NCBI GenBank assembly: GCA_002011035.2
Contig: MTLY02000003.1
Coordinates: 489,194 to 553,193 of the forward strand
Length of the DNA: 64,000 nucleotides
Reading direction: 5' to 3'
DNA from: Candidatus Hecatella orcuttiae
GTDB lineage: Archaea > Thermoproteota > Bathyarchaeia > Hecatellales > Hecatellaceae
The notes beneath the pieces were generated by a model. The model saw only the letters and a program-made list of their open reading frames with translations, did not search any database and was not told the DNA's origin. How positions within the stretch are numbered: position 1 is the stretch's first letter; each line of letters starts with the position of its first letter. A program made the position numbers and the translations under genes. Positions 2,166 to 61,402 of this stretch are shown piece by piece.

Positions 2166-3269
2166 TTGAAGCTTGTAACCATAGGTTTAGGGCAGGCTGG
2201 CGGGAGAATCGTCGACCTACTCCTCCATTATGATACTTGGGGAAGACACAAGCATATTGTGGCCTCCTGTATGGCTGTTAATACCTCCAAGTCGGACCTC
2301 ATAGGCTTGAGAACCATCCCCCAGAAGCACAGGGTCCTCATAGGGCAGAGCGCTGTGAAAGGCCACGGAGTAGGATTAAACAACGAGCTGGCGGCTAAAA
2401 TAATGGAAAAAGACCATCCGATGATCAAGAGAGTGCTGAGTGAGCGGGAGCACTTGGACATCGACGCCTTCCTCCTGATAGCCGGGCTTGGCGGGGGCAC
2501 AGGTTCAGGGGGAACCCCCGTGCTGGTTAAAGCATTGAAGGAGAGCTACGGGGAGCCTGTCTATGTCCTCGGAGTGCTGCCCAGCGACGATGAGGGAGGC
2601 CTGATGTGCTACAACGCGGCGAGAAGCCTGGTTTCCCTCAAAGACAAGGCGGACGGAATCATTCTTTTCGACAACAACCTCTGGAGGAGGGAAGGGCTGC
2701 CCATCCAAGCCAGCTACGACGCCATGAACCACCAGGTGGTCAAGCCTCTGCCTGTGCTGATGGGAGCCGGGGAGGTCACGGCTAAGGATAAAATAGGCGC
2801 CAAGGTGGTAGACGCCTCCGACATTATGAACACCATCCGCCAGTTCACTGTCCTAGGCCATTCGGAAGTCCAGCTGGGTGGGCTGTGGAGTAAAAAAGTG
2901 GACATCCACGAGCTCATAAGACTGGCTGTGACGGGGAAGCTGACGGCTGAGTGCGACATAAAGCAGGCCCGCCGGGTCTTGTTCATGGTAGCCGGGCCTC
3001 CGCGGGAGATGAGCCGCGCCGGCATCGATCATGCTCGAAGCTGGCTGGAGAGCGTTGCCGTGAACGCGGAGCTGAGGGTGGGCGACTACCCGCTTCCCAA
3101 GTCTAAAACCATGATGAGCATCGTCCTCTTCTCAGGCATGGAGGACACGCCGAGGGTGAAGGCGTTGGTGAAGAAGGCTCTGGAGTATCAGAAACTTCAG
3201 GAAACCCGGGAGGCGGGGGTAAGCAGCTTGGAGTTGGGCAAAGGTCGGCTGAAGCCTCTGATAGAGTAG
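2166..3269 (+). CDS. cetZ: CetZ/FtsZ-like tubulin-family GTPase
   Basis: Tubulin/FtsZ-superfamily cytoskeletal GTPase expected to polymerise at the membrane and affect division or cell shape. Seen: an N-terminal nucleotide-binding strand with GQAGG at residues 9-13, the tubulin signature GGGTGSGG at 109-116, a downstream FDNN near 168-171, and VDASD near 215-219 in the place of the T7 catalytic loop. The 367 aa length fits CetZ. It looks nearer to CetZ than to true FtsZ because the long FtsZ-type C-terminal tail is missing and the N-terminus starts directly at strand 1. The start is TTG with GAGG upstream. It stands alone here, but an ESCRT-III/Vps4 cluster lies 9 kb away. The CetZ versus divergent FtsZ assignment would need a tree. 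Confidence 0.85.
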   Translation: MKLVTIGLGQAGGRIVDLLLHYDTWGRHKHIVASCMAVNTSKSDLIGLRTIPQKHRVLIGQSAVKGHGVGLNNELAAKIMEKDHPMIKRVLSEREHLDIDAFLLIAGLGGGTGSGGTPVLVKALKESYGEPVYVLGVLPSDDEGGLMCYNAARSLVSLKDKADGIILFDNNLWRREGLPIQASYDAMNHQVVKPLPVLMGAGEVTAKDKIGAKVVDASDIMNTIRQFTVLGHSEVQLGGLWSKKVDIHELIRLAVTGKLTAECDIKQARRVLFMVAGPPREMSRAGIDHARSWLESVAVNAELRVGDYPLPKSKTMMSIVLFSGMEDTPRVKALVKKALEYQKLQETREAGVSSLELGKGRLKPLIE

Positions 3270-3309: not shown

Positions 3310-4470
3310 ATGGGAGGCGGAGCAACCTTGCAGGTTTCAGGCTTCCGAAAGTTTTACCCCTTTTTCTTCGCAGTCCTTCTCTCCCTCGGCAGCTTGACGG
3401 CCTTGGCCTCCGCAGCCGCCCTCCAAGGGGAGGTCGAAGTTCTGCTGGAGGGGCTGAATCACCCTACAGGTTTGGCTGTGGACCAGGAGGGCAACGTTTA
3501 CTTCACGGAGTTCGGTTTGGAGGGAGCTCTTAAAAAATACTGGGCGGACGGCCGGGTTTCCACGCTGCTCTCCAACCTCACCTCCGCGCCGGGGGTGGCA
3601 GTGGGGCCTGAAGGCGACGTCTACGTGGTGGAGGGCGCTGAAGGGGTGCTCTGGAGGCTGAGGCCCGGAGCTTCGGAGCCTGAGGCTGTGGTGGAGGAGA
3701 CCTTGGGGATGTGGGACTTGGCCTTGGACGGAGACGGCAACCTTTACATTACCATCCGGTCGGTGGAGGGGGCGCTGCTGAGGCTGAGCCCCGGGGCTGA
3801 GCGGCCTGAAACCTTGGTGGAGGGTTTGAACGTCCCCTACGGAGTGGCCGTGGACGGAGCTGGCAGTGTCTACTGGGTGGAGTTTGGGAACAGAACGGAG
3901 AGCAACGGAGCCCTGAGGATGCTTCCCCCGGGGTCGGCGGAGCCTCTGACCCTGCTGGAGGGGCTGCGGAACCCCTACGACGTGGCTGTGGACGGCCGGG
4001 GCTGGGTTTACTTCACCGAGAAGGCGGGGACGCTGAAGGTTTTGAAGCCTGAGGGCGGGGAGCCGGAGGTAGTCCTCTCCGACCTGGGGAGGGTCTACGG
4101 CATCGCCTTCGACCCCTTGGGAAACCTGTACCTGGCTAGGTTCGGAAGCCCCGTTGGCACAGGCGACGGAGCCCTTTGGAGGCTTCGGGTTTCGGAGCCC
4201 CCTGCCCCCGAGGGCGAGGACGGGCGGCTGGCTGCTTTGGAAAGCCGGGTGGCTGAGCTTTCTTCGGAGGCTGCTTCCCTGGAAGCTCAGGTAGTTGCGT
4301 TGGGGGACGCCGTGGACGACTTGGCCGGTGAGGTGGCTGGGGTTGAGGGTTTGATACGGGGAGTTCTGGCTTTGGCGGCTGTGGCCGTGGTCTTGGCTGT
4401 GGCTTCCCTGGGGCTTCAGTTGAAGGCCGGGGCTCCGAAGGGGAAGGCTGGGCGTCCTCGGAGAGTTTGA
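3310..4470 (+). CDS. Membrane-anchored NHL/Vgb-like beta-propeller protein
   Basis: Predicted extracytoplasmic protein. A signal-like hydrophobic segment (residues 13-37) ends in ASA. About six propeller blades follow, each with a motif such as PTGLAVDQEGNVYFTE or PYGVAVDGAGSVYWVE, typical of NHL repeats and virginiamycin-B-lyase-like propellers. Residues 305-345 are heptad-rich and probably coiled coil, and residues 347-370 form a C-terminal membrane span followed by basic residues. This gives a head, stalk and membrane anchor facing outward. Catalytic residues of a lyase or lactonase cannot be assigned; binding or adhesion is equally likely. High GC and strong codon bias resemble the surface genes at 8.7-10.8 kb. 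Confidence 0.8.
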   Translation: MGGGATLQVSGFRKFYPFFFAVLLSLGSLTALASAAALQGEVEVLLEGLNHPTGLAVDQEGNVYFTEFGLEGALKKYWADGRVSTLLSNLTSAPGVAVGPEGDVYVVEGAEGVLWRLRPGASEPEAVVEETLGMWDLALDGDGNLYITIRSVEGALLRLSPGAERPETLVEGLNVPYGVAVDGAGSVYWVEFGNRTESNGALRMLPPGSAEPLTLLEGLRNPYDVAVDGRGWVYFTEKAGTLKVLKPEGGEPEVVLSDLGRVYGIAFDPLGNLYLARFGSPVGTGDGALWRLRVSEPPAPEGEDGRLAALESRVAELSSEAASLEAQVVALGDAVDDLAGEVAGVEGLIRGVLALAAVAVVLAVASLGLQLKAGAPKGKAGRPRRV

Positions 4471-5281: not shown

Positions 5282-8200
5282 ATGAATACCATAGGCTTGA
5301 ATATCGACATGAAAAAAGGTTTAGGCATAGCAACCATCGCCATACTCCTCCTAGGAGTACTAGCCGCCATACCCATCGTCCTACCCAAAGCCCACGCAGG
5401 CACCCTGGGAACCATAACCGTATCATCCGACAGGTTCAGCGGCGACAACCTACTTCAGATAACCATCACAGACCCAGATATCGCCGCTGCCACTGCTGGA
5501 ATGCCCAGTGTTGAGGTAAACGGCGTAGCCATAGACCTCTATCAAATAGTGGGAGGCGCTTGGGTTGCGTGGATCGTGGACGACGCCTTTGATACTCCTA
5601 CAAACGAAGGCCGTCCAGCTAATCCGCCCAACCAAGAAGCCAACCTCGGCGCTAACGAACCGAATGCTGATGACGACGGTGATGGCGTCACAGAGTTGGG
5701 CGAATTTGATGAGGTCGTTGAAGAGTTCGACTTTGCTGATGCAGGTGTGACCTCTGTTACGATCATCTACCATGATGTAGATCCCTTCCAGGATGTTTCT
5801 GTGACCGTAAGCTACGGTGCCATCACGGGCGCTGTTACCCTTGACCGTGAAGAGTACCCACTAGGCGCTACTGTCAACATCGATGTAGAGGACGTAGACC
5901 TGAACGCCGACCCCACAGCTGCGGAGACAACCGCAGCCTTGCTGAACCTCGCCACCACCACAGGTGGTGCTGTAGGCGTCCAGACTATGACTGAAACAGG
6001 TCCCACCACGGGCGTGTTTGAGGACGCCATAGCGCTGCCTGCGGGAACAGCAGTAGGAGACATCATCACGGTGACCTACGATGCCGGAGGAGACAACGTG
6101 GTGGTAACCGCCGTGGTCACAGCCAACACAGGCGCCGTGACCTTGGACAAGGCGGAGTACGACATCAACGATGTGGCTACCATAACCCTGACTGACCCAG
6201 ACCTTAACCTCAACGCGGAGGCCGCTGACGAGGTTAACAACGTTAACGTGCTGAAAGTCACAGTAGACCTGCCGGCTGCTGTAGGAAACTACGCTGTGGA
6301 CATGGATGAGACAGGCGTCAACACAGGTGTCTTCACCGGCCAGTTCTCCTTCGTCCTAGACGACGGAGATGCAAACGACGACAGCACCGCTGGCAACGAC
6401 CCCATCATCGAAGTGGCCAGTGGAGCTACGATCACCGTAACCTACACCGACGCCAACACGGCGGACGGTCGGACGAACGTGGACCTCACAGCTACGGCTG
6501 ACTTCGTCACCCACACAGGAACTGTTGCCTTGGACAGGGACACCTACGGCCCCAACGCCGTAGCTACCGTCACCGTGACGGACATGGACCTGAACACCGA
6601 CTCCAGCGCTCGGGAGAGATACTACTCCTTAAACGTGCTGGATGTCACCAGCGCAGCTGACCAGAACGCTCCCCACGCCATCATGATCTTGGAGACGGGA
6701 CCTGACACAGGTGTCTTCACCGGCCAGTTCCGGTTCACCACCACAGACGGTGCAGGAACTGCTGGCACCATTCCGACGGTGGAAGTTGCCATCGGCGGAA
6801 CAGTGACTGTAACTTACACCGATGCGGTGGATGCAGCCGGTAATGCCGTGGACGTGACTGACACAGCTACCTTCAGAAGCCAGACAGGGTCCATCGACAT
6901 CCTCAAGTCGGTGATCTCGCCGGACACCACCATCCTAGTCCAACTAACCGATCCAGACCTCAACACTGACGCCTACGTGGTAGACGACGCCTTCGACAGT
7001 CTGGCGGACACAGCTCTGACCTTCTACAGCACAAGCTGGCCTCTTACCTCTGGCACTGAAGATGAACACCAGTTCGAAGATAGTGCTGCGGTTGAAACCG
7101 ACTTCGACGAGACGGGTGTTAACACAGGAGTCTTCGAGATACGAATAGACCTCAGCCACGCAACTGTTCTCGAAGCAGCCGGAGATACATTCTACGTTAA
7201 ATACATCGATCCGGCTAACAGTGCAGGCGGCACCTCCACCCTCCAAGACACAGCCTCAGTTAGGACTAACACAGGGACATTGTCGCTGGACAAATCCGAA
7301 TACAGCATCGGCGATACGATAACGATAACCCTGACCGACCCAGATCTGAACACTGACCCGGAAGCAGCGGACACAACTCCCGACGACGGTGACGACACAC
7401 TGGAAGACAGCGAAGTCCTGATAAAGAGCAGCACGGATCCCACAGGCGAGGTCATAGTTCTCACAGAAACAGGCTGGGACACCAACGTCTTCACCGACAC
7501 GATTATCGTGTCTGAAACCCAAGCCACAAATGACGAGTACCTTCTAGTATCCCGCGCCGACACGGTCACCGTCCAATACAGAGACGCGGCCACAGCCGGA
7601 GGCGGAGGAGCTATAACCATCACCGCTACAGCGACGATCACAGCCACCACAGGCACCCTCGAACTGGACAAGACCGTCTACACGCCCAGAGGAAAGGTCA
7701 CCGTCACAGTGACCGACCCCGACCTCAACGTCAACTCCCTCGTCAACGACGAACTTGATGAAACAACGGAAAGAGCCAGAGCCTTCACCACCAGCGACCC
7801 CACAGGCATCTACTTCACCCTCACAGAAACAGGGCCTGACACAGGCGTCTTCCAAGCCATCATCACGTTGGCAGCAGCCACCAACGATGCTGCCGACGAG
7901 TTGAAGGCTGCGGACGACGACGGCCTGACGGTGGTCTACATCGACGCTGCGGATGCCGCGGGCAACTTGGATGTAGCCGTCAGGAAGACAGCTTTGGTCA
8001 CCTACAACACAGGCATCCTCAGCTTCGACATGGCCTCCTACACCATGGATGACTCACCTGTGGTCACCCTCAATGACCCCGACCTCAACCTTGAACCAGC
8101 CCTCAGAGAATCCGCCAACATCGCAATAACTTCAAGCACCGACCCCGCGGGCATAAGGCTGACCTTAACCGAGACAGCTGTCGACTCCGGAGTATTCTCG

Positions 8201-8707
8201 GAGAGCTTCACCTTCACCACAGGCACATCCCAAGGCACCAAGCTGCAGGCTGCCGTGGGCGACATCATCACAGCGGTCTACGACGACGCCGCCAACGCCG
8301 ACGGTCTGGCACAGAGGATTAAGGCCACCGCCACCCTGACGGTGACCCCGGTTGCGCCCGGAGTTGTCATCTCCGCCGGTGCACCGTCTCTGCTGGACGT
8401 CAACGGCAACCCCATCGCCGCAGCCACCGTGGGCACCACGGTGCTCCTGTCCACCGAGATGACCAACAGCGCCGCTGAAGACCAAGCCATGCTCTACATC
8501 GTCCAGGTCAAAGACGCCGCAGGCCGTGTGGTGAGCCTCAGCTTCATCAGCGGCACCGTCCCAGCCGGAGCCACCTACACCTTCGGAGTTCCGTGGATTC
8601 CGGCTGAAGCCGGAGACTACACCGTCGAAGTCTTCGCCTGGCACAGCTGGACAGACCCGACACCCCTATCAGAAGTCAGCACAGCCACAGTGACCGCCAC
8701 CTCGTAA
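5282..8707 (+). CDS. S-layer protein, thaumarchaeal type with about eight repeats
   Basis: Large (1141 aa) secreted surface-layer protein. A signal peptide spans about residues 10-39 (hydrophobic core AILLLGVLAAIPIVL, likely cleavage after AHA). The mature part has about eight tandem domains of roughly 110-140 residues. Each opens with a segment like LDKxEYxxxDxVTxTxTDPDLNxD, and most carry an ETGxxTGVF motif. Both motifs are characteristic of thaumarchaeal S-layer proteins such as Nmar_1547. A different beta-rich domain closes the protein (about residues 1035-1141). It is very acidic and has no C-terminal membrane span, so anchoring probably relies on partners; the next two genes encode membrane-anchored stalk candidates. 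ATG at 5282 and 5309 are both possible starts. Confidence 0.88.
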   Translation: MNTIGLNIDMKKGLGIATIAILLLGVLAAIPIVLPKAHAGTLGTITVSSDRFSGDNLLQITITDPDIAAATAGMPSVEVNGVAIDLYQIVGGAWVAWIVDDAFDTPTNEGRPANPPNQEANLGANEPNADDDGDGVTELGEFDEVVEEFDFADAGVTSVTIIYHDVDPFQDVSVTVSYGAITGAVTLDREEYPLGATVNIDVEDVDLNADPTAAETTAALLNLATTTGGAVGVQTMTETGPTTGVFEDAIALPAGTAVGDIITVTYDAGGDNVVVTAVVTANTGAVTLDKAEYDINDVATITLTDPDLNLNAEAADEVNNVNVLKVTVDLPAAVGNYAVDMDETGVNTGVFTGQFSFVLDDGDANDDSTAGNDPIIEVASGATITVTYTDANTADGRTNVDLTATADFVTHTGTVALDRDTYGPNAVATVTVTDMDLNTDSSARERYYSLNVLDVTSAADQNAPHAIMILETGPDTGVFTGQFRFTTTDGAGTAGTIPTVEVAIGGTVTVTYTDAVDAAGNAVDVTDTATFRSQTGSIDILKSVISPDTTILVQLTDPDLNTDAYVVDDAFDSLADTALTFYSTSWPLTSGTEDEHQFEDSAAVETDFDETGVNTGVFEIRIDLSHATVLEAAGDTFYVKYIDPANSAGGTSTLQDTASVRTNTGTLSLDKSEYSIGDTITITLTDPDLNTDPEAADTTPDDGDDTLEDSEVLIKSSTDPTGEVIVLTETGWDTNVFTDTIIVSETQATNDEYLLVSRADTVTVQYRDAATAGGGGAITITATATITATTGTLELDKTVYTPRGKVTVTVTDPDLNVNSLVNDELDETTERARAFTTSDPTGIYFTLTETGPDTGVFQAIITLAAATNDAADELKAADDDGLTVVYIDAADAAGNLDVAVRKTALVTYNTGILSFDMASYTMDDSPVVTLNDPDLNLEPALRESANIAITSSTDPAGIRLTLTETAVDSGVFSESFTFTTGTSQGTKLQAAVGDIITAVYDDAANADGLAQRIKATATLTVTPVAPGVVISAGAPSLLDVNGNPIAAATVGTTVLLSTEMTNSAAEDQAMLYIVQVKDAAGRVVSLSFISGTVPAGATYTFGVPWIPAEAGDYTVEVFAWHSWTDPTPLSEVSTATVTATS

Positions 8708-8723: not shown

Positions 8724-9425
8724 ATGTACCCGATGACACCCCAAAAATCCCTACCTTTCTTTATGGTAGCAGTGCTCATCGTCGCCGCAGCAGTTTTGCC
8801 TTTGGCTTTCGCCGCCCCCACGGTTGCCACGGATAAGGACACCTACGAGCCGGGGGACAGCCTTTCGGTGAGCGGTACAGCTGCGGCCAACGCTTTGGTG
8901 TCTCTTCAGCTGTTCGACCCCGACGGGGTTCGGGTGGCCATAGCCCAAGCGGAGGCCGACGCCGCCGGCGCCTACTCCGCCGCCAACATCTACACTTTCT
9001 CCGCCCAAGACCCCACAGGCACCTGGACGGTGAAAGCCTACGAAGGCGGCATAACCGCGGAGACTACCTTCCAACTGGTCTCCGAGATAACGCCCCCGGT
9101 AGAAGATAGAGTCGCCGAACTCGAAGCCCAAATCGCCGACCTCACCAGCCAACTGGAAGCCCTCCAAGCCGAACTCGCCGCCATCGAACTCCAACCAGGC
9201 CCTGAAGGTCCCCAAGGCCCTCCAGGCCCTGAAGGTCCCCAAGGCCCTCCAGGCCCAGCCGGCCCAGCCGGTCCAGCCGGCCCTGAAGGCCCACCGGGCC
9301 CACCGGGTCCTGCCGGCCCAGCCGGTCCAGCAGCACCCATGGGGCTGACCTACGGAGCCATCATCATCGCCATCATAGCCATAGCCCTCAGCGCCGCCAG
9401 CCTAGCCAGAAAACCCAAAGCCTAA
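8724..9425 (+). CDS. Collagen-like, coiled-coil, membrane-anchored stalk protein
   Basis: A 233-residue surface protein. An N-terminal signal/hydrophobic segment (residues 12-31) is followed by one Ig/MG2-like beta domain (about 33-120, starting [14 protein letters not shown]). A short coiled coil (about 126-157) leads into fifteen uninterrupted Gly-X-Y triplets (residues 159-203, mostly [12 protein letters not shown]). The protein ends in one membrane span (about 207-226) and a basic tail (ARKPKA). This suggests a trimer with a collagen-like rod holding a head domain above the membrane. It starts 16 nt after the S-layer stop, so it is likely co-transcribed and may act as the S-layer anchor, analogous to SlaB of Sulfolobales. 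The anchor role is inferred. Confidence 0.82.
8772..9050 (+). repeat. Perfect 279-bp direct repeat, copy 1
   Basis: Base-for-base identical to 9606-9884 (offset 834). It covers the end of the signal peptide and the whole Ig-like head domain of the collagen-like protein. Sequence on both sides differs. Confidence 0.95.
9198..9332 (+). repeat. Gly-X-Y coding repeat (15 collagen triplets)
   Basis: Fifteen consecutive 9-nt units encoding Gly-Pro-Xaa triplets. The DNA is also internally repetitive, so the length may vary by slippage or recombination and may be prone to assembly collapse. Confidence 0.9.
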
Positions 9426-9536: not shown

Positions 9537-10793
9537 TTGTTGAATAAAACCCTAGAAAAAACCCCCTCCCTTCACACCCTCTTGGCCGCCGGTATCCTAG
9601 CGGTTGTGCTCATCGTCGCCGCAGCAGTTTTGCCTTTGGCTTTCGCCGCCCCCACGGTTGCCACGGATAAGGACACCTACGAGCCGGGGGACAGCCTTTC
9701 GGTGAGCGGTACAGCTGCGGCCAACGCTTTGGTGTCTCTTCAGCTGTTCGACCCCGACGGGGTTCGGGTGGCCATAGCCCAAGCGGAGGCCGACGCCGCC
9801 GGCGCCTACTCCGCCGCCAACATCTACACTTTCTCCGCCCAAGACCCCACAGGCACCTGGACGGTGAAAGCCTACGAAGGCGGCGCCTTCGCCACCGCCA
9901 CCTTTACCCTCCGAGGAGTGGTGGACACCACGCCTCCAAGCCTAACCCTCAACTTCACGCCCCTCAAGGCCGTCTACGGCAAAGCTGACACCTTCACCAT
10001 CACCCTCACCGCCGACGAACCCCTCCAATCCGCCGTCATCCACGTCAACCAGCAGGGAGCTCCCCTAGTCATCGACGGAAAATGGGCTGCCTCCGTGGAA
10101 GCCGCGGCCTCCCCAGAAGACCCCGCCCGCTGGAGCGGAAGCTACACCATCATGGAAGGCTACGACGGCCCGGCTCAAGTCCACGCCGTAGGCATAGACC
10201 TAGCCGGAAACAAGGGTGAAGCCACCGCCACCTTCCAAGTCGACACCGTCGCCCCCCAGCTGACCGTCACCGCGCCCTCCGCCACCACCGAGGCCACCGT
10301 CACCGTCACCGGAACCGTCGACGACCCGGATATCACCGAGATAACCCTAACCTACGACGCTGCGGTTAAAACAGTCAGCGTGAGCGAGGGCTCCTGGAGC
10401 GCCACCATCACCCTCCCAGCCGCGGGAAGCTACACCGTCCAAGCCACAGCCGTTGACGCTGCGGGCAACGTGGGCTCATCCCCCGCTGTCTCCATTGTCT
10501 ACACTCCGCCCCCACCCCTAGAAGCCGAGGACATCATCGGCCCCATCCGCGCCGACATCTCCGATGTGAAAGGCGGCATCTCGGATGTGAAAGGCGGCAT
10601 CTCAGAGGTTAAGGGCAGCATCTCCGAAGTCAGAGGCAGCATCTCCGAGCTGAGGGATGAAACCCGAGCCCTCAGCACAGCTGTCTCCAGTCTCACCGTC
10701 TACGTCATGGTCGCCGTTGTGCTCTCCCTCGTCGCCGCAGTCGCCGCCATCATCTCCGTGGTAACCATCGCCCGCAAGGTCGTGCTCAAATAA
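9537..10793 (+). CDS. Ig-domain, heptad-repeat, membrane-anchored surface protein
   Basis: A 418-residue surface protein. It has a signal segment (about residues 12-38), then the same Ig-like head domain as the preceding protein (identical over the 279-bp repeat). Two further Ig/Big-like domains follow: about 125-235, with TPPSLTLNF, and about 237-330, ending VDAAGNVGSSP, a typical HYR/Ig-like ending. After a proline linker come five exact seven-residue repeats (ISDVKGG/ISEVKGS type, residues 340-374) forming a coiled-coil stalk, then a membrane span (about 388-412). TTG at 9537 is chosen for the AGGTGA upstream; the ATG at 9533 runs into a stop after four codons. It is likely a second S-layer anchor or accessory pilus-like stalk; the function is inferred. 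Confidence 0.82.
   Translation: MLNKTLEKTPSLHTLLAAGILAVVLIVAAAVLPLAFAAPTVATDKDTYEPGDSLSVSGTAAANALVSLQLFDPDGVRVAIAQAEADAAGAYSAANIYTFSAQDPTGTWTVKAYEGGAFATATFTLRGVVDTTPPSLTLNFTPLKAVYGKADTFTITLTADEPLQSAVIHVNQQGAPLVIDGKWAASVEAAASPEDPARWSGSYTIMEGYDGPAQVHAVGIDLAGNKGEATATFQVDTVAPQLTVTAPSATTEATVTVTGTVDDPDITEITLTYDAAVKTVSVSEGSWSATITLPAAGSYTVQATAVDAAGNVGSSPAVSIVYTPPPPLEAEDIIGPIRADISDVKGGISDVKGGISEVKGSISEVRGSISELRDETRALSTAVSSLTVYVMVAVVLSLVAAVAAIISVVTIARKVVLK
9606..9884 (+). repeat. Perfect 279-bp direct repeat, copy 2
   Basis: Second copy of the block at 8772-9050. Identity stops abruptly at both ends, as expected after recent gene conversion or segmental duplication. Confidence 0.95.
10554..10658 (+). 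repeat. Five 21-nt tandem repeats encoding coiled-coil heptads
   Basis: Five in-frame 21-nt units, the second nearly identical to the first, encode Ile-Ser-(Asp/Glu)-Val-Lys-Gly-Gly-like heptads. The regularity at DNA level suggests expansion by slippage. Confidence 0.9.
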
Positions 10794-12165: not shown

Positions 12166-12373
12166 CAGAGTCACGGAAAACGCTGATCGAAATGTACTTA
12201 AACTTCAAACCTCGCCGCAAAATAGACAGGAGTTGAGTTTTTCTTGTAAAAGCCCCTCTTCAACACGGCTTTTTTTAAGCATTTCATTTCTACAAGGTTA
12301 ATACTTTTTGGAGTTACCCTATTTAAGGTACTACGCTGGATTGAGTGCTCTATCTAAAGGTGAGCCGGGAAAA

Positions 12374-13021
12374 ATGTTCAAAAATTGGAGTAAACCAGAA
12401 GGCGGGTCGGTGTTCCGGCGGTTTGAAGAAAAGATTCACAAGGGTCCACCGCTCAAGGAAAAAATAGCGCAAACCATTTTCAGGCTTAAACTTCAGCAAA
12501 GAAAACTGGAAGAAGCCGCATCCAAGCTTCAGCGCCATGACCGTGAATTGTTCGAAAAATGCGTTGCCGCCGAGCTGGCCAAGGATGATGCCAGAGCCGC
12601 CATCTACGCCAACGAATGCGCCGAAGTGAGAAAAATGGCGAAGATAATCCTCCTCAGCCAGTTAGCCTTAGAGCAGGTAAGCCTGAGGCTGGAAACTGTC
12701 GAGGAATTTGGAGACGTCCTAACCCAGATGGCCCCGGTGAGCGATGTGGTCCACAGCCTCAAAGGACGTTTAGCTGGAGTGATCCCCGAGGTCTCCTACG
12801 AACTCGGCTCCATCGGCGAGATGCTCAACGGGATGATGGTTGAGGCTGGAGCTGCCTCCAACGTTTCATGGACACCTGAAGCAGCTGGAGAAGAGTCAAA
12901 AGCCATCCTCAACCAAGCGTCTCTTGTGGCTGAAGAGAGGATGAAGGAGAAATTCCCCGACCTCCCCGCCGTCGCTACTGCTCAACGTGAAGCCACAGAA
13001 GGAGAAAAGCCCCTCCGTTAA
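12374..13021 (+). CDS. cdvB: ESCRT-III (Snf7/CdvB) family protein, short paralogue
   Basis: Core-only ESCRT-III protein of about 215 residues. It has a basic helical start (PLKEKIAQTIFRLKLQQRKLEE) and the long helical hairpin with YANECAEVRKMAKI, typical of archaeal CdvB. The end carries KFPDLPAV, which resembles a proline-rich MIM2 motif that binds the MIT domain of CdvC/Vps4. It lacks the C-terminal winged helix found in the next gene. I chose ATG 12374 because GGTGAG lies 8 nt upstream and the length before PLKEK then matches the paralogue; an in-frame TTG at 12308 is the longer alternative. It should polymerise on membranes for scission. Confidence 0.85.
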   Translation: MFKNWSKPEGGSVFRRFEEKIHKGPPLKEKIAQTIFRLKLQQRKLEEAASKLQRHDRELFEKCVAAELAKDDARAAIYANECAEVRKMAKIILLSQLALEQVSLRLETVEEFGDVLTQMAPVSDVVHSLKGRLAGVIPEVSYELGSIGEMLNGMMVEAGAASNVSWTPEAAGEESKAILNQASLVAEERMKEKFPDLPAVATAQREATEGEKPLR

Positions 13022-13089
13022 GGTGTTCGACTTCCCGCAAGCAGAAATGGGTGAACCGTAGAAGAGTGAAGATGAGGGATTCTCTCTAA

Positions 13090-13974
13090 ATGTCCTTCCT
13101 TCGAAAGGTCCTCCCTTCCCTAAAGGCGGCGAAAGAAATGCACTTCACTAGAACACCTCTTAAAGAGAAGATCGCCCAAGCAGTCTACAGGCTGGAAACT
13201 CAGCTGAGCCGCTTAGAGCAGACCTCGGCGAAGCTTCAGCAAAGAGACCGGGAAATGTTCGAGAGATGCATAGGCGCCAAGGCCAACAACGACACAGCCC
13301 ACGCGGTGATCTACGCCAATGAATGTGTGGAAATCAGAAACATGGCTAAAATCGTTCTAAGCAGCCAGCTGGCCCTCGAGAAGGTTATCCTCAGACTTCA
13401 AACCATCGAGGAAGTAGGCGACGTCATGGTTCACATGGCCCCGGTGCTGAGCATCGTAAAGGAAACCCGGGGAAACCTGAAGGGAGTGATCCCCGAGGTC
13501 TCCCAAGAGCTTGATGAAATCAACATCTTCCTCAACAACACCTTCTTAGAGGTGGGGACCACCCCGGAGCACATGGCCAATTTAGAGGCTTCCTCCTCCG
13601 AAGCCAAGAAAGTCCTTGAAGAAGCAGCAACCATAGCCGAGCGGAAGGTGAAAGAAGAATACCCCAAGCTCCCCGAACCTCCCCTCACAGCCCCAGAACC
13701 CCCAAGCCCTGAAGCTGAAGCCCTAACCGTCGGAGGTTCTCCGGAGCCAGCACCCTTCGAGGAAGAGAAACCGGTGGAGGCAGCTGAGCCTCCTACCCCC
13801 ATCCAGGAAGTTCCCTTCGAACAGTTGAAAGAGCAAGTGTACGACTTCATAAGAGAATGCGGTGGAGAATTGAATCTAAGCCAGTGCGCTCAGGCTCTCA
13901 ACGCTGACATGGAATCTGTTCAGAAAGCCCTGGCTAAACTTGAGGAAGAGGGCCGAATTCGAGTTCAAACCTAG
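13090..13974 (+). CDS. cdvB: ESCRT-III/CdvB with C-terminal winged helix
   Basis: Second ESCRT-III paralogue (294 aa), clearly homologous to the preceding one (PLKEKIAQAVYRLETQLSRLEQ; IYANECVEIRNMAKIVL). After the helical core it has KEEYPKLPEPP, a MIM2-like motif, then a proline/glutamate-rich linker (about 195-245). A winged-helix domain (about 250-294, DFIRECGGELNLSQCAQAL ... LEEEGRIRV) ends the protein. In Crenarchaeota the CdvB winged helix binds CdvA at the membrane. No CdvA-like gene is in this window, so the recruiting partner here is unknown. It lies 29 nt before the Vps4 gene and is probably in the same operon. Confidence 0.9.
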   Translation: MSFLRKVLPSLKAAKEMHFTRTPLKEKIAQAVYRLETQLSRLEQTSAKLQQRDREMFERCIGAKANNDTAHAVIYANECVEIRNMAKIVLSSQLALEKVILRLQTIEEVGDVMVHMAPVLSIVKETRGNLKGVIPEVSQELDEINIFLNNTFLEVGTTPEHMANLEASSSEAKKVLEEAATIAERKVKEEYPKLPEPPLTAPEPPSPEAEALTVGGSPEPAPFEEEKPVEAAEPPTPIQEVPFEQLKEQVYDFIRECGGELNLSQCAQALNADMESVQKALAKLEEEGRIRVQT

Positions 13975-14003
13975 GCTGAAGCCTAGCGGGGGAACTGTTA
14001 GCG

Positions 14004-15140
14004 ATGAGCGCCCTCGAAGAACTGGAGCGCTACGCGGTTAAACATGCGTCTGAAGCCGTGCGGATGGACAGCCAAGGCGCCCGGGGAATGGCTGCCTCCG
14101 AGTATCAGCATGCCGTAGAAATTCTCCTTAAACTCTGCTCCCTCTACCCTAACGTTCCCCAGAACAGAATTTACATGAGCCGCATAGAAGCCTACAGGAA
14201 GAGGATCAAGGAGCTTCAAAAAGAGGGAGGGCAAGAGGAAAAAGCTGCGGAAGCCACAGCGGCAACCGGCCGCGTCGACTGTAAACTGAAGGAGAAACCT
14301 CGAGTTAAATGGGAGGACATTGCAAACCTAGAAAACGCCAAAAGAGCAATCCTCGAGGCTGTGGTCTACCCTGTTAAGAGGCCGGATTTGTTTCCCCTAG
14401 GCTGGCCTAAAGGCATCCTGCTCTTCGGGCCTCCTGGCTGCGGTAAAACCCTCATAGCCGCTGCCACGGCCAACGAAATCGACGCCAACTTTTACTGTGT
14501 GGACGCAGCGGCGATAATGTCCAAGTGGCTGGGGGAGTCGGAGAGAAACGTGGCTAAAATTTTTGAGGAAGCCAGAAGTTCATCCGCAAAGGGGAAGCCT
14601 TCTATCATTTTCGTCGACGAGATAGACTCCCTCATGGCCTACCGTTCAGAGGAAGTAGGCGGAGAGGCTAGGGCGCGAAACCAGTTCCTCAAAGAAATGG
14701 ACGGAATCCTCGACAAAAACCGAAACCTCTACGTCTACGTTTTCGGAGCCACCAACAAGCCTTGGGCTTTAGACGAGCCTTTTGTGAGGCGTTTCCAGAA
14801 GAGGATTTTCGTCCCCCTCCCAGACCATCATGCCCGCTTGGAAATGATCAAAATCTACGCTAGGGAGCTAAACCTAGCCCCGGAAGTTGACGTGGAGGAC
14901 TTGGCTAAAAGAATGGATGGCTTCAGCGGAAGCGACATCCGAGATCTCCTCCAATCAGCTCAGATAAAAGTGGTCAGAGAGTTCTTCGAAAACAACGGCT
15001 CCGCCTCCAACCCCCAAGCCAAGCCCAGAGCCATAACTTGGCATGATCTCCAAGAGGTTCTCTCAGAGCGAAAAACCAGCGTATCCCAAAACCTCCTCAA
15101 AGCCTACAGAGAATGGGACTCCGCTTTCAAAGCCCTCTAG
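14004..15140 (+). CDS. cdvC: CdvC/Vps4-type AAA ATPase
   Basis: AAA ATPase that disassembles ESCRT-III polymers. The 378 residues start with a three-helix MIT domain (about 1-75: ALEELERYAVKHASEAV ... YRKRIKEL). A linker and a Vps4-type AAA module follow: Walker A GPPGCGKT at 142-149, Walker B IIFVDEID at 201-208, and Arg-rich VRRFQKR for the arginine finger region. The C-terminal helix is typical of Vps4. The MIT domain should bind the MIM2-like motifs seen in both CdvB paralogues. ATG at 14004 follows the CdvB stop by 29 nt. The assignment is firm. Confidence 0.94.
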   Translation: MSALEELERYAVKHASEAVRMDSQGARGMAASEYQHAVEILLKLCSLYPNVPQNRIYMSRIEAYRKRIKELQKEGGQEEKAAEATAATGRVDCKLKEKPRVKWEDIANLENAKRAILEAVVYPVKRPDLFPLGWPKGILLFGPPGCGKTLIAAATANEIDANFYCVDAAAIMSKWLGESERNVAKIFEEARSSSAKGKPSIIFVDEIDSLMAYRSEEVGGEARARNQFLKEMDGILDKNRNLYVYVFGATNKPWALDEPFVRRFQKRIFVPLPDHHARLEMIKIYARELNLAPEVDVEDLAKRMDGFSGSDIRDLLQSAQIKVVREFFENNGSASNPQAKPRAITWHDLQEVLSERKTSVSQNLLKAYREWDSAFKAL

Positions 15141-60103: not shown

Positions 60104-60742
60104 ATGAGAGGACATTTTTCAAACAAAACGCTGAAGAAATGGCTTAAACAGAAAAAAGCGGTATCCCCCATCATCGCTACCCTGCTGATGATCGTCATAT
60201 CCGTGGTGGCTGGTGTCATGATCTACGGTTGGATCTCCGGTTTCATATCTACGGGTGTTCCCTCCGTACCCACAGCATACATAGTCACAATCTCCTCGGT
60301 TACTGTTTCTGATGTTGATACTTCTTCAGCTACTACGCATAATTCGACGGTTCTTAAAGTAAAGATCAGCAATCCTGGGGCGAAGGATGTTTCTGTCACT
60401 GCTGCTAACTTCATCGTAACCAATTCTTCCGGCTATGTCTACGACTACAATGGCACGGGCGGCAGCTTGCATGTGCTGGTGTACCAGGTGAGTAGCTCTT
60501 CTATAACTGCCACAGCTCAGAACCTAACTACTCAAGTAGGTCTTACCGGTGCAGCGAACACTGTTACATTGACCGGTGGAACCACGACGACCCTATATAT
60601 CGAGCTTCTAGGACATGAGTCTGGGGCGGATACTGGGGCCTTGGACAAAGGAGACACCTACATCCTCAACACCCAAGACGCAACAACCTACGACGGCATA
60701 TCGGTTACCTCAGCCGAATACACCTTCAAAGCCAACAAATAA
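60104..60742 (+). CDS. Archaeal type IV pilin (first of a pair)
   Basis: A 212-residue pilin. The class III signal reads KQKKAVSPIIATLLM, with cleavage expected just before AVSPII by the prepilin peptidase. A hydrophobic assembly helix (about 17-40) follows, then a Ser/Thr/Asn-rich beta head with N-x-S/T sites. From 60298 onward the DNA is identical to the next gene for 431 bp, while leaders and helices differ. Both probably form the pilus shaft or variants of it. The ATG is supported by GAGG and a near TATA box. Confidence 0.92.
   Translation: MRGHFSNKTLKKWLKQKKAVSPIIATLLMIVISVVAGVMIYGWISGFISTGVPSVPTAYIVTISSVTVSDVDTSSATTHNSTVLKVKISNPGAKDVSVTAANFIVTNSSGYVYDYNGTGGSLHVLVYQVSSSSITATAQNLTTQVGLTGAANTVTLTGGTTTTLYIELLGHESGADTGALDKGDTYILNTQDATTYDGISVTSAEYTFKANK
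60298..60728 (+). repeat. Perfect 431-bp direct repeat, copy 1
   Basis: Identical to 60958-61388 (offset 660). It covers the pilin head domain of the first gene up to three codons before the stop. Confidence 0.96.
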
Positions 60743-60784: not shown

Positions 60785-61402
60785 TTGAAATGGCCTAAGT
60801 GTCTCAGAAATAGAAAGGCTGTATCTCCGATTATCGGCGTCTTACTGATGATTGTCATCGCAGTCGTTGCCGGTGTCATGATCTATAGCTGGGTCACTGG
60901 TTTCATATCTACAGGCATCCCCTCCCCGCCCAAAGCATACACCATTAGTATCGACATGGTTACTGTTTCTGATGTTGATACTTCTTCAGCTACTACGCAT
61001 AATTCGACGGTTCTTAAAGTAAAGATCAGCAATCCTGGGGCGAAGGATGTTTCTGTCACTGCTGCTAACTTCATCGTAACCAATTCTTCCGGCTATGTCT
61101 ACGACTACAATGGCACGGGCGGCAGCTTGCATGTGCTGGTGTACCAGGTGAGTAGCTCTTCTATAACTGCCACAGCTCAGAACCTAACTACTCAAGTAGG
61201 TCTTACCGGTGCAGCGAACACTGTTACATTGACCGGTGGAACCACGACGACCCTATATATCGAGCTTCTAGGACATGAGTCTGGGGCGGATACTGGGGCC
61301 TTGGACAAAGGAGACACCTACATCCTCAACACCCAAGACGCAACAACCTACGACGGCATATCGGTTACCTCAGCCGAATACACCTTCAGGGCTAACAAAT
61401 AA
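60785..61402 (+). CDS. Archaeal type IV pilin (second of a pair)
   Basis: A 205-residue pilin with its own leader (RNRKAVSPIIGVLLM) and hydrophobic helix, then a head domain identical to that of the preceding pilin. The TTG at 60785 follows GGAGATCAGG. The helices differ at many codons while the heads match perfectly, which points to recent gene conversion of the head. The two may be co-assembled, or allow exchange of surface-exposed sequence. Confidence 0.92.
   Translation: MKWPKCLRNRKAVSPIIGVLLMIVIAVVAGVMIYSWVTGFISTGIPSPPKAYTISIDMVTVSDVDTSSATTHNSTVLKVKISNPGAKDVSVTAANFIVTNSSGYVYDYNGTGGSLHVLVYQVSSSSITATAQNLTTQVGLTGAANTVTLTGGTTTTLYIELLGHESGADTGALDKGDTYILNTQDATTYDGISVTSAEYTFRANK
60958..61388 (+). 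repeat. Perfect 431-bp direct repeat, copy 2
   Basis: Second copy of the block at 60298-60728. It ends abruptly at the first differing base of the final codons. Confidence 0.96.

Follow-up and report, generated by a model that had tools for sequence, protein, structure and literature searches.

This locus raises the question of what a run of collagen-like triplets contributes to a protein encoded immediately behind an archaeal S-layer gene. The window, meaning the entire 64,000-nucleotide stretch of DNA analyzed here, contains the following elements that bear on the answer:

3310–4470, + strand: NHL/beta-propeller surface protein with a coiled coil and a C-terminal membrane helix, a conserved neighbor upstream of the S-layer gene
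5282–8707, + strand: S-layer protein, 1141 aa, with repeated Ig-like domains with DPDLN motifs, assigned by its match to 8c8k_A
8724–9425, + strand: predicted SlaB-type S-layer anchor with a collagen-like stalk, 233 aa
9446–9458, + strand: T-rich run T5-A-T7 located 3' of the stop codon, by its sequence a possible archaeal terminator
9537–10793, + strand: second SlaB-like protein, 418 aa, start codon TTG, in which the same head is combined with two further Ig domains, a coiled coil and a membrane helix

We favor, at a probability of roughly 0.68, the reading that the 233-aa product is a trimeric SlaB-type anchor whose stalk consists mainly of a ~14 nm collagen triple helix, with trimerization, the triple-helical fold, S-layer binding and a spacer role as its predicted properties.

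The protein encoded at 5282–8707 matches the Nitrosopumilus maritimus S-layer protein 8c8k_A (E 1e-49), has homologs in 8/8 genomes of the order, and contains no C-terminal membrane span. The ATG of the following ORF, which has AAGGAG upstream, lies 16 bp past the S-layer stop codon on the same strand, bearing out the claim, made in a sequence-only reading of this DNA, that the gene directly follows an S-layer gene. Scans for sigma-70 promoters and hairpin terminators reached chance level only, and neither model applies to archaea; an Rfam search gave no match. The order NHL protein, S-layer gene, short anchor, long anchor is the same in the relatives G006 and G007 as in the window, and the NHL gene occupies the same position in two loci (L074 and L076). 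A CetZ-type tubulin, two Snf7-like proteins (weak matches) and an MIT-AAA (Vps4-like) ATPase flank the S-layer/anchor block (2166–3269 and 12308–15140); two relatives also have Snf7-like genes 3' of their anchors, and one (L081) has the AAA gene. The S-layer protein scores 204 bits against the anammox Kustd1514 S-layer family model, below the cut-off of 1400. Its C-terminal domain recurs elsewhere in the same genome, in a 632-aa S-layer-like protein (L083, 4435–6333) and a 549-aa secreted protease-like protein (L084, 5136–6785), and may be a shared surface-docking module.

The 233-aa gene divides into these parts:

8724–8813, + strand: N-terminal signal peptide region, residues 1–30, with a hydrophobic helix at residues 11–24 (AlphaFold2), aligning with relatives
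8814–9083, + strand: head, residues 31–120, an MG2/Ig-like beta sandwich of 7 strands, pLDDT ~97
9099–9188, + strand: coiled-coil helix, residues 126–155, heptads unbroken (AlphaFold2 helix and heptad register)
9108–9125, + strand: candidate trimerization motif R129-V-A-E-L-E134, in which Arg occupies a g position, Val an a, Leu a d and Glu an e position
9198–9332, + strand: collagen-like segment of 15 Gly-Pro-Y triplets, residues 159–203 (Pfam Collagen and sequence)
9342–9407, + strand: C-terminal membrane helix, residues 207–228, then the basic tail RKPKA (AlphaFold2, hydrophobicity and likeness to relatives' anchors)

The AlphaFold2 monomer model was built with 11 aligned homologs. In a fold search with this model the best matches to the head were alpha-2-macroglobulin/complement domains, which places the head in the MG2/Ig-like class; residues 157–211 have pLDDT below 50, and the collagen segment is thus without resolved structure in the model, which counts neither for nor against a triple helix.

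The Gly-X-Y run continues through 15 triplets without a break, and X is Pro in 15/15. Over 20,000 shuffles, the longest run of Gly at every third position was 6 for the whole protein and 9 when the collagen segment only was shuffled, and the protein passes the Pfam Collagen (PF01391) cut-off of 27.2 with 34 bits. The sequence-only reading had described 15 perfect triplets between a coiled coil and a C-terminal membrane span, together with an Ig-like head, and the shuffles, the Pfam match and the AlphaFold2 model confirm this layout. The Gly and Pro codons of the 15 units are invariant at their first two bases and differ only at the third, so the triplet pattern is kept by selection at the protein level. 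A 27-bp exact duplication within the segment indicates that part of it is young. The duplication also suits a different account, in which the protein is a SlaB-type anchor but the Gly-Pro-Y tract is a stiff or low-complexity Pro-rich linker produced by repeat slippage, with no triple helix and with the coiled coil alone holding the trimer; the occurrence of collagen in one genome only, the low pLDDT and the lack of a prolyl hydroxylase point the same way. We regard such a linker as unlikely, given that 0 Gly or Pro residues have been lost in 15 triplets although synonymous sites vary, and that the segment directly continues a trimer-type coiled coil, so that three strands would already lie side by side. 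For the Gly-Pro-Y segment we instead infer a triple-helical fold.

The composition of the segment bears on how such a helix might be stabilized. Pro at X in 15/15 puts the 233-aa protein at the top of all loci examined (the next highest value, 0.77, belongs to other loci of the class), and bacterial collagen-like proteins have Pro at 19–31% of X positions (PMC8968730). Because no PF13640 prolyl hydroxylase match was found in the genome, the all-Pro X positions are a plausible route to stability, Pro at X plausibly favoring a stable helix without prolyl hydroxylase. Amino-acid use in the genome gives a very rough habitat estimate of 62–76 °C, suggesting a thermophile. Host-guest values for these 15 triplets, whose mean we take to be ~42 °C, fall below that rough estimate, and stability must therefore come from the trimeric ends. 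Reverse gyrase is above the cut-off in three relatives and not in this genome; the idea of a hyperthermophile was dropped for this reason, and the organism is accordingly at most a moderate thermophile.

Collagen requires three chains, and the coiled-coil motif suggests that the 233-aa protein is a trimer. In one register, 9/9 of the a/d positions in the helix at residues 126–155 are hydrophobic. The R-h-x-x-h-E pattern, present in 1.9% of shuffled helices, occurs here as R129-V-A-E-L-E134 and matches a published trimerization motif that is found in some dimers too (PMC3653964). A trimeric coiled coil directly N-terminal of the collagen would set the three chains in register, and at the other end they would be held by three membrane helices. 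With textbook rises per residue of 0.149 nm for a coiled coil and 0.286 nm for collagen, the stalk is calculated at 4.5 + 13.7 = ~18 nm, of which the collagen part would account for ~14 nm if it forms a triple helix. For the G006 anchor the calculated stalk comprises a coiled coil of ~10 nm and one Ig domain.

On sequence evidence, the product of 8724–9425 is identified as a SlaB-type S-layer anchor. First, the NCBIfam SlaB model NF040788 matches the head (E 5.4e-12, 45 bits, missing the full-length cut-off of 700), and head profile A3, made from eight heads of the order, matches 8qox_B, the SlaB of Sulfolobus acidocaldarius (E 1.8e-5); this chain of 8QOX is part of an AlphaFold trimer fitted into a tomographic map (PMC10903991). 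Second, the gene adjoins the S-layer gene on its downstream side and encodes a signal peptide, a beta-sandwich head and a C-terminal membrane helix; its homology to SlaB lies in the head only, and its coiled-coil stalk is short (30 residues) and extended by collagen. Third, SlaB-like genes elsewhere in the class likewise lie directly 3' of S-layer genes, and in another family of the class a homolog adjoining an S-layer gene reaches 118.5 bits with the SlaB model. Since SlaB is absent from the 50 best fold-search matches with the AlphaFold2 model, it is sequence profiles and gene order that connect the protein to SlaB. When named genomes were searched with the whole protein, only bacterial collagen or coiled-coil look-alikes came back. 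The fetched loci contain 44 distinct SlaB-like proteins, 16 of them (the window protein and 15 others) encoded directly downstream of a recognizable S-layer gene, and show that SlaB-like anchors extend well beyond the Sulfolobales. A Gly-X-Y run of 15 occurs in the window protein only, the next longest being 3, and the contrast that the sequence-only reading drew with SlaB proteins relying on coiled coils only is upheld across this set.

Comparison with the short anchors of the order identifies what has changed. The model of the G006 anchor (C31) comprises Ig1, Ig2 (132–222), a 65-residue helix and a membrane helix, and the G007 anchor (C2) comprises Ig1, Ig2, a coiled coil of ~30 residues and a membrane helix; the model of the window protein runs from Ig1 through a 30-residue helix and the collagen to the membrane helix. 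The two relatives' anchors share with the window protein the same place, a homologous head (47% identity over 128 residues for G006) and a similar membrane helix, but have Ig2 and a coiled coil with no collagen. The collagen stands in place of Ig2 and, relative to G006, of more than half of the coiled coil, with the head and membrane helix kept. Pfam Collagen is found in 1/8 genomes of the order, the window genome only. Absence from all relatives had been named beforehand as a finding that would count against the idea; it is borne out for the collagen and not for the gene, as the S-layer anchor is conserved in relatives and only the stalk has been replaced in this genome.

The gene order also bears on whether the 233-aa protein might be a separate, adhesin-like collagen surface protein that shares the operon, with its 418-aa neighbor serving as the real S-layer anchor. 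The gene directly behind does encode another SlaB-like protein, one with a full coiled-coil stalk, and the class has many collagen-like surface proteins that bear other heads. We nevertheless judge such a division of roles improbable, since in relatives the first slot after the S-layer gene is held by SlaB-like genes, and since the collagen would lie between the coiled coil and the membrane, below the lattice, and not at the outer tip.

The anchor reading must also accommodate a feature that the sequence-only reading omitted, namely that the next gene, 9537–10793, carries a second copy of the head, with 279 bp identical:

8772–9050, + strand: 279-bp head stretch, copy 1, 100% identical to copy 2
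9606–9884, + strand: 279-bp head stretch, copy 2

The protein of this second gene matches the SlaB model NF040788 at E 3.3e-8. The edges of the direct repeat are sharp, and the corresponding two heads have diverged in G006 and G007. The simplest reading of the identity is a recent gene conversion or duplication that has put one binding head on two stalks; recombination between the repeats could also remove the collagen stalk. Similar local copying is seen in the tandem archaellin/pilin-like genes at 60104–60742 and 60785–61402, in which the C-terminal ~165 residues are near-identical and the N-termini differ. The wider proposal, that this lineage has largely exchanged its SlaB stalk for a hydroxyproline-free, all-Gly-Pro-Y triple helix and carries the same head on two stalks, identical by gene conversion, is offered tentatively, at slightly less than even odds.

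Identical repeats of this kind are places where an assembly can be misjoined, and collagen runs are commoner in bacteria, both of which would suit an artefact in which bacterial contamination or misassembly made the collagen ORF. Such an origin is highly improbable. The contig that contains the window is 731 kb long, one of 3 in the genome, and the neighboring genes are archaeal (archaellum ATPase, CofD, SRP54 and the CetZ-type tubulin); the head and flanks have homologs in archaeal relatives, with their order conserved; and the unique collagen stretch is outside the 279-bp repeat, with its frame intact. Bacterial contamination, which the earlier reading had flagged as a possible objection, is excluded because a contig of this size carries archaeal genes.

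The same reading had called the protein an unusual design for an archaeal surface protein, which proved too strong. Pfam Collagen matches are present in 72/257 genomes of the class and 91/398 in a sample of the phylum. Among 60 class loci inspected, the majority show an N-terminal membrane helix, collagen and a C-terminal head, and a second design, at ~18/60 loci, has a long Ig-like head, Gly-X-Y and a C-terminal membrane helix. This second design recurs mostly in a large family of the class, f11 (L104, L107, L110, L112, L118, L120, L136, L146, L148, L149, L134 and others). The class type I collagen proteins (L104, L107, L118, L134, L148, L149 and others) resemble the window protein in their Ig-like head and in Gly-X-Y before a C-terminal membrane helix, but differ in that they are without the SlaB-type coiled coil, have no recognized S-layer gene nearby, and are mostly 500–1700 aa long. 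No S-layer profile match was found near the 60 class collagen loci, in regions of mostly ~6 kb on each side, some ending at contig ends, with a profile that too-divergent S-layer proteins escape. Collagen beside S-layer genes as a general archaeal theme was rejected for the class on this basis, and looking for Gly-X-Y proteins beside S-layer genes, a check that the sequence-only reading had proposed, turned up the window protein only, among the 44 SlaB-like proteins, and none of the 60 collagen loci. A collagen rod on the archaeal surface is not rare, and in an S-layer anchor it was seen once; the novelty therefore lies in collagen within an S-layer anchor.

In another family of the phylum, f29, nearly every genome has collagen matches. 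The three loci inspected there (L154, L157 and L166, in G258, G369 and G344) encode a ~550-aa protein that consists largely of Gly-X-Y, has a conserved domain at each of its N- and C-termini, shows no obvious signal peptide or membrane span, and adjoins a GTPase-like or TPR-like gene; these are possibly the proteins annotated elsewhere as 'LPXTG-anchored collagen-like adhesin'. The open-access literature yielded no paper joining collagen-like stalks to archaeal S-layer anchors, and the word 'archaea' was not found in a review of prokaryotic collagens. A collagen-like adhesin has been named in an ammonia-oxidizing archaeon and may interact with its S-layer (PMC13037477).

In the architecture that we propose, three copies of the 233-aa protein would join via the trimeric coiled coil, and the three heads would attach to the S-layer lattice from underneath. 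On the membrane side of the coiled coil, the 15 Gly-Pro-Y triplets of each chain would wind into a collagen triple helix reaching down to three membrane helices, and this rod, replacing Ig2 and much of the coiled coil, would set the gap between membrane and S-layer with a stalk of ~18 nm. The position of the collagen rod is consistent with its putative role as a rigid spacer. If this architecture is correct, coiled coil and collagen, two trimeric rods, are interchangeable in evolution, known S-layer stalks being coiled coils, and the locus offers a compact one-gene test case for the way in which the length and stiffness of a stalk determine how far the S-layer stands from the membrane. It would further represent a collagen for warm conditions that manages without hydroxyproline by placing Pro at every X. 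Within this archaeal phylum, as the survey also shows, collagen-like surface proteins are commonplace.

Among known systems, the closest comparison is with the SlaB of Sulfolobales, whose chain runs from a signal through a head and a coiled coil to a C-terminal membrane helix and which is a trimer in situ, its heads holding the canopy and its coiled coil reaching the membrane (PMC6911244; PMC10903991). Like SlaB, the window protein is encoded directly downstream of an S-layer gene and has a signal peptide, a homologous N-terminal beta-sandwich head, a coiled coil and a single C-terminal membrane helix. Unlike SlaB, it has one head domain rather than 2–3, a coiled coil of 30 residues rather than ~110, and a collagen-like segment of 48 residues, and it is paired with an S-layer protein of the N. 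maritimus type and not with SlaA. With the bacterial Scl1/Scl2 (SclA/SclB) and Lcl proteins it shares a Gly-X-Y rod in a surface protein, but its head, anchor and topology are different, X is always Pro, and there is no LPXTG; the SclB-type LPXTG adhesin model NF038329 scores 39.7 of 325 bits, over the collagen part only, and the protein is therefore not assigned to that group. The stalk of tetrabrachion from Staphylothermus marinus is likewise a long rod reaching from the membrane to the S-layer canopy (PMC5744192), but there the rod is a four-stranded, right-handed coiled coil and is part of the S-layer protein itself.
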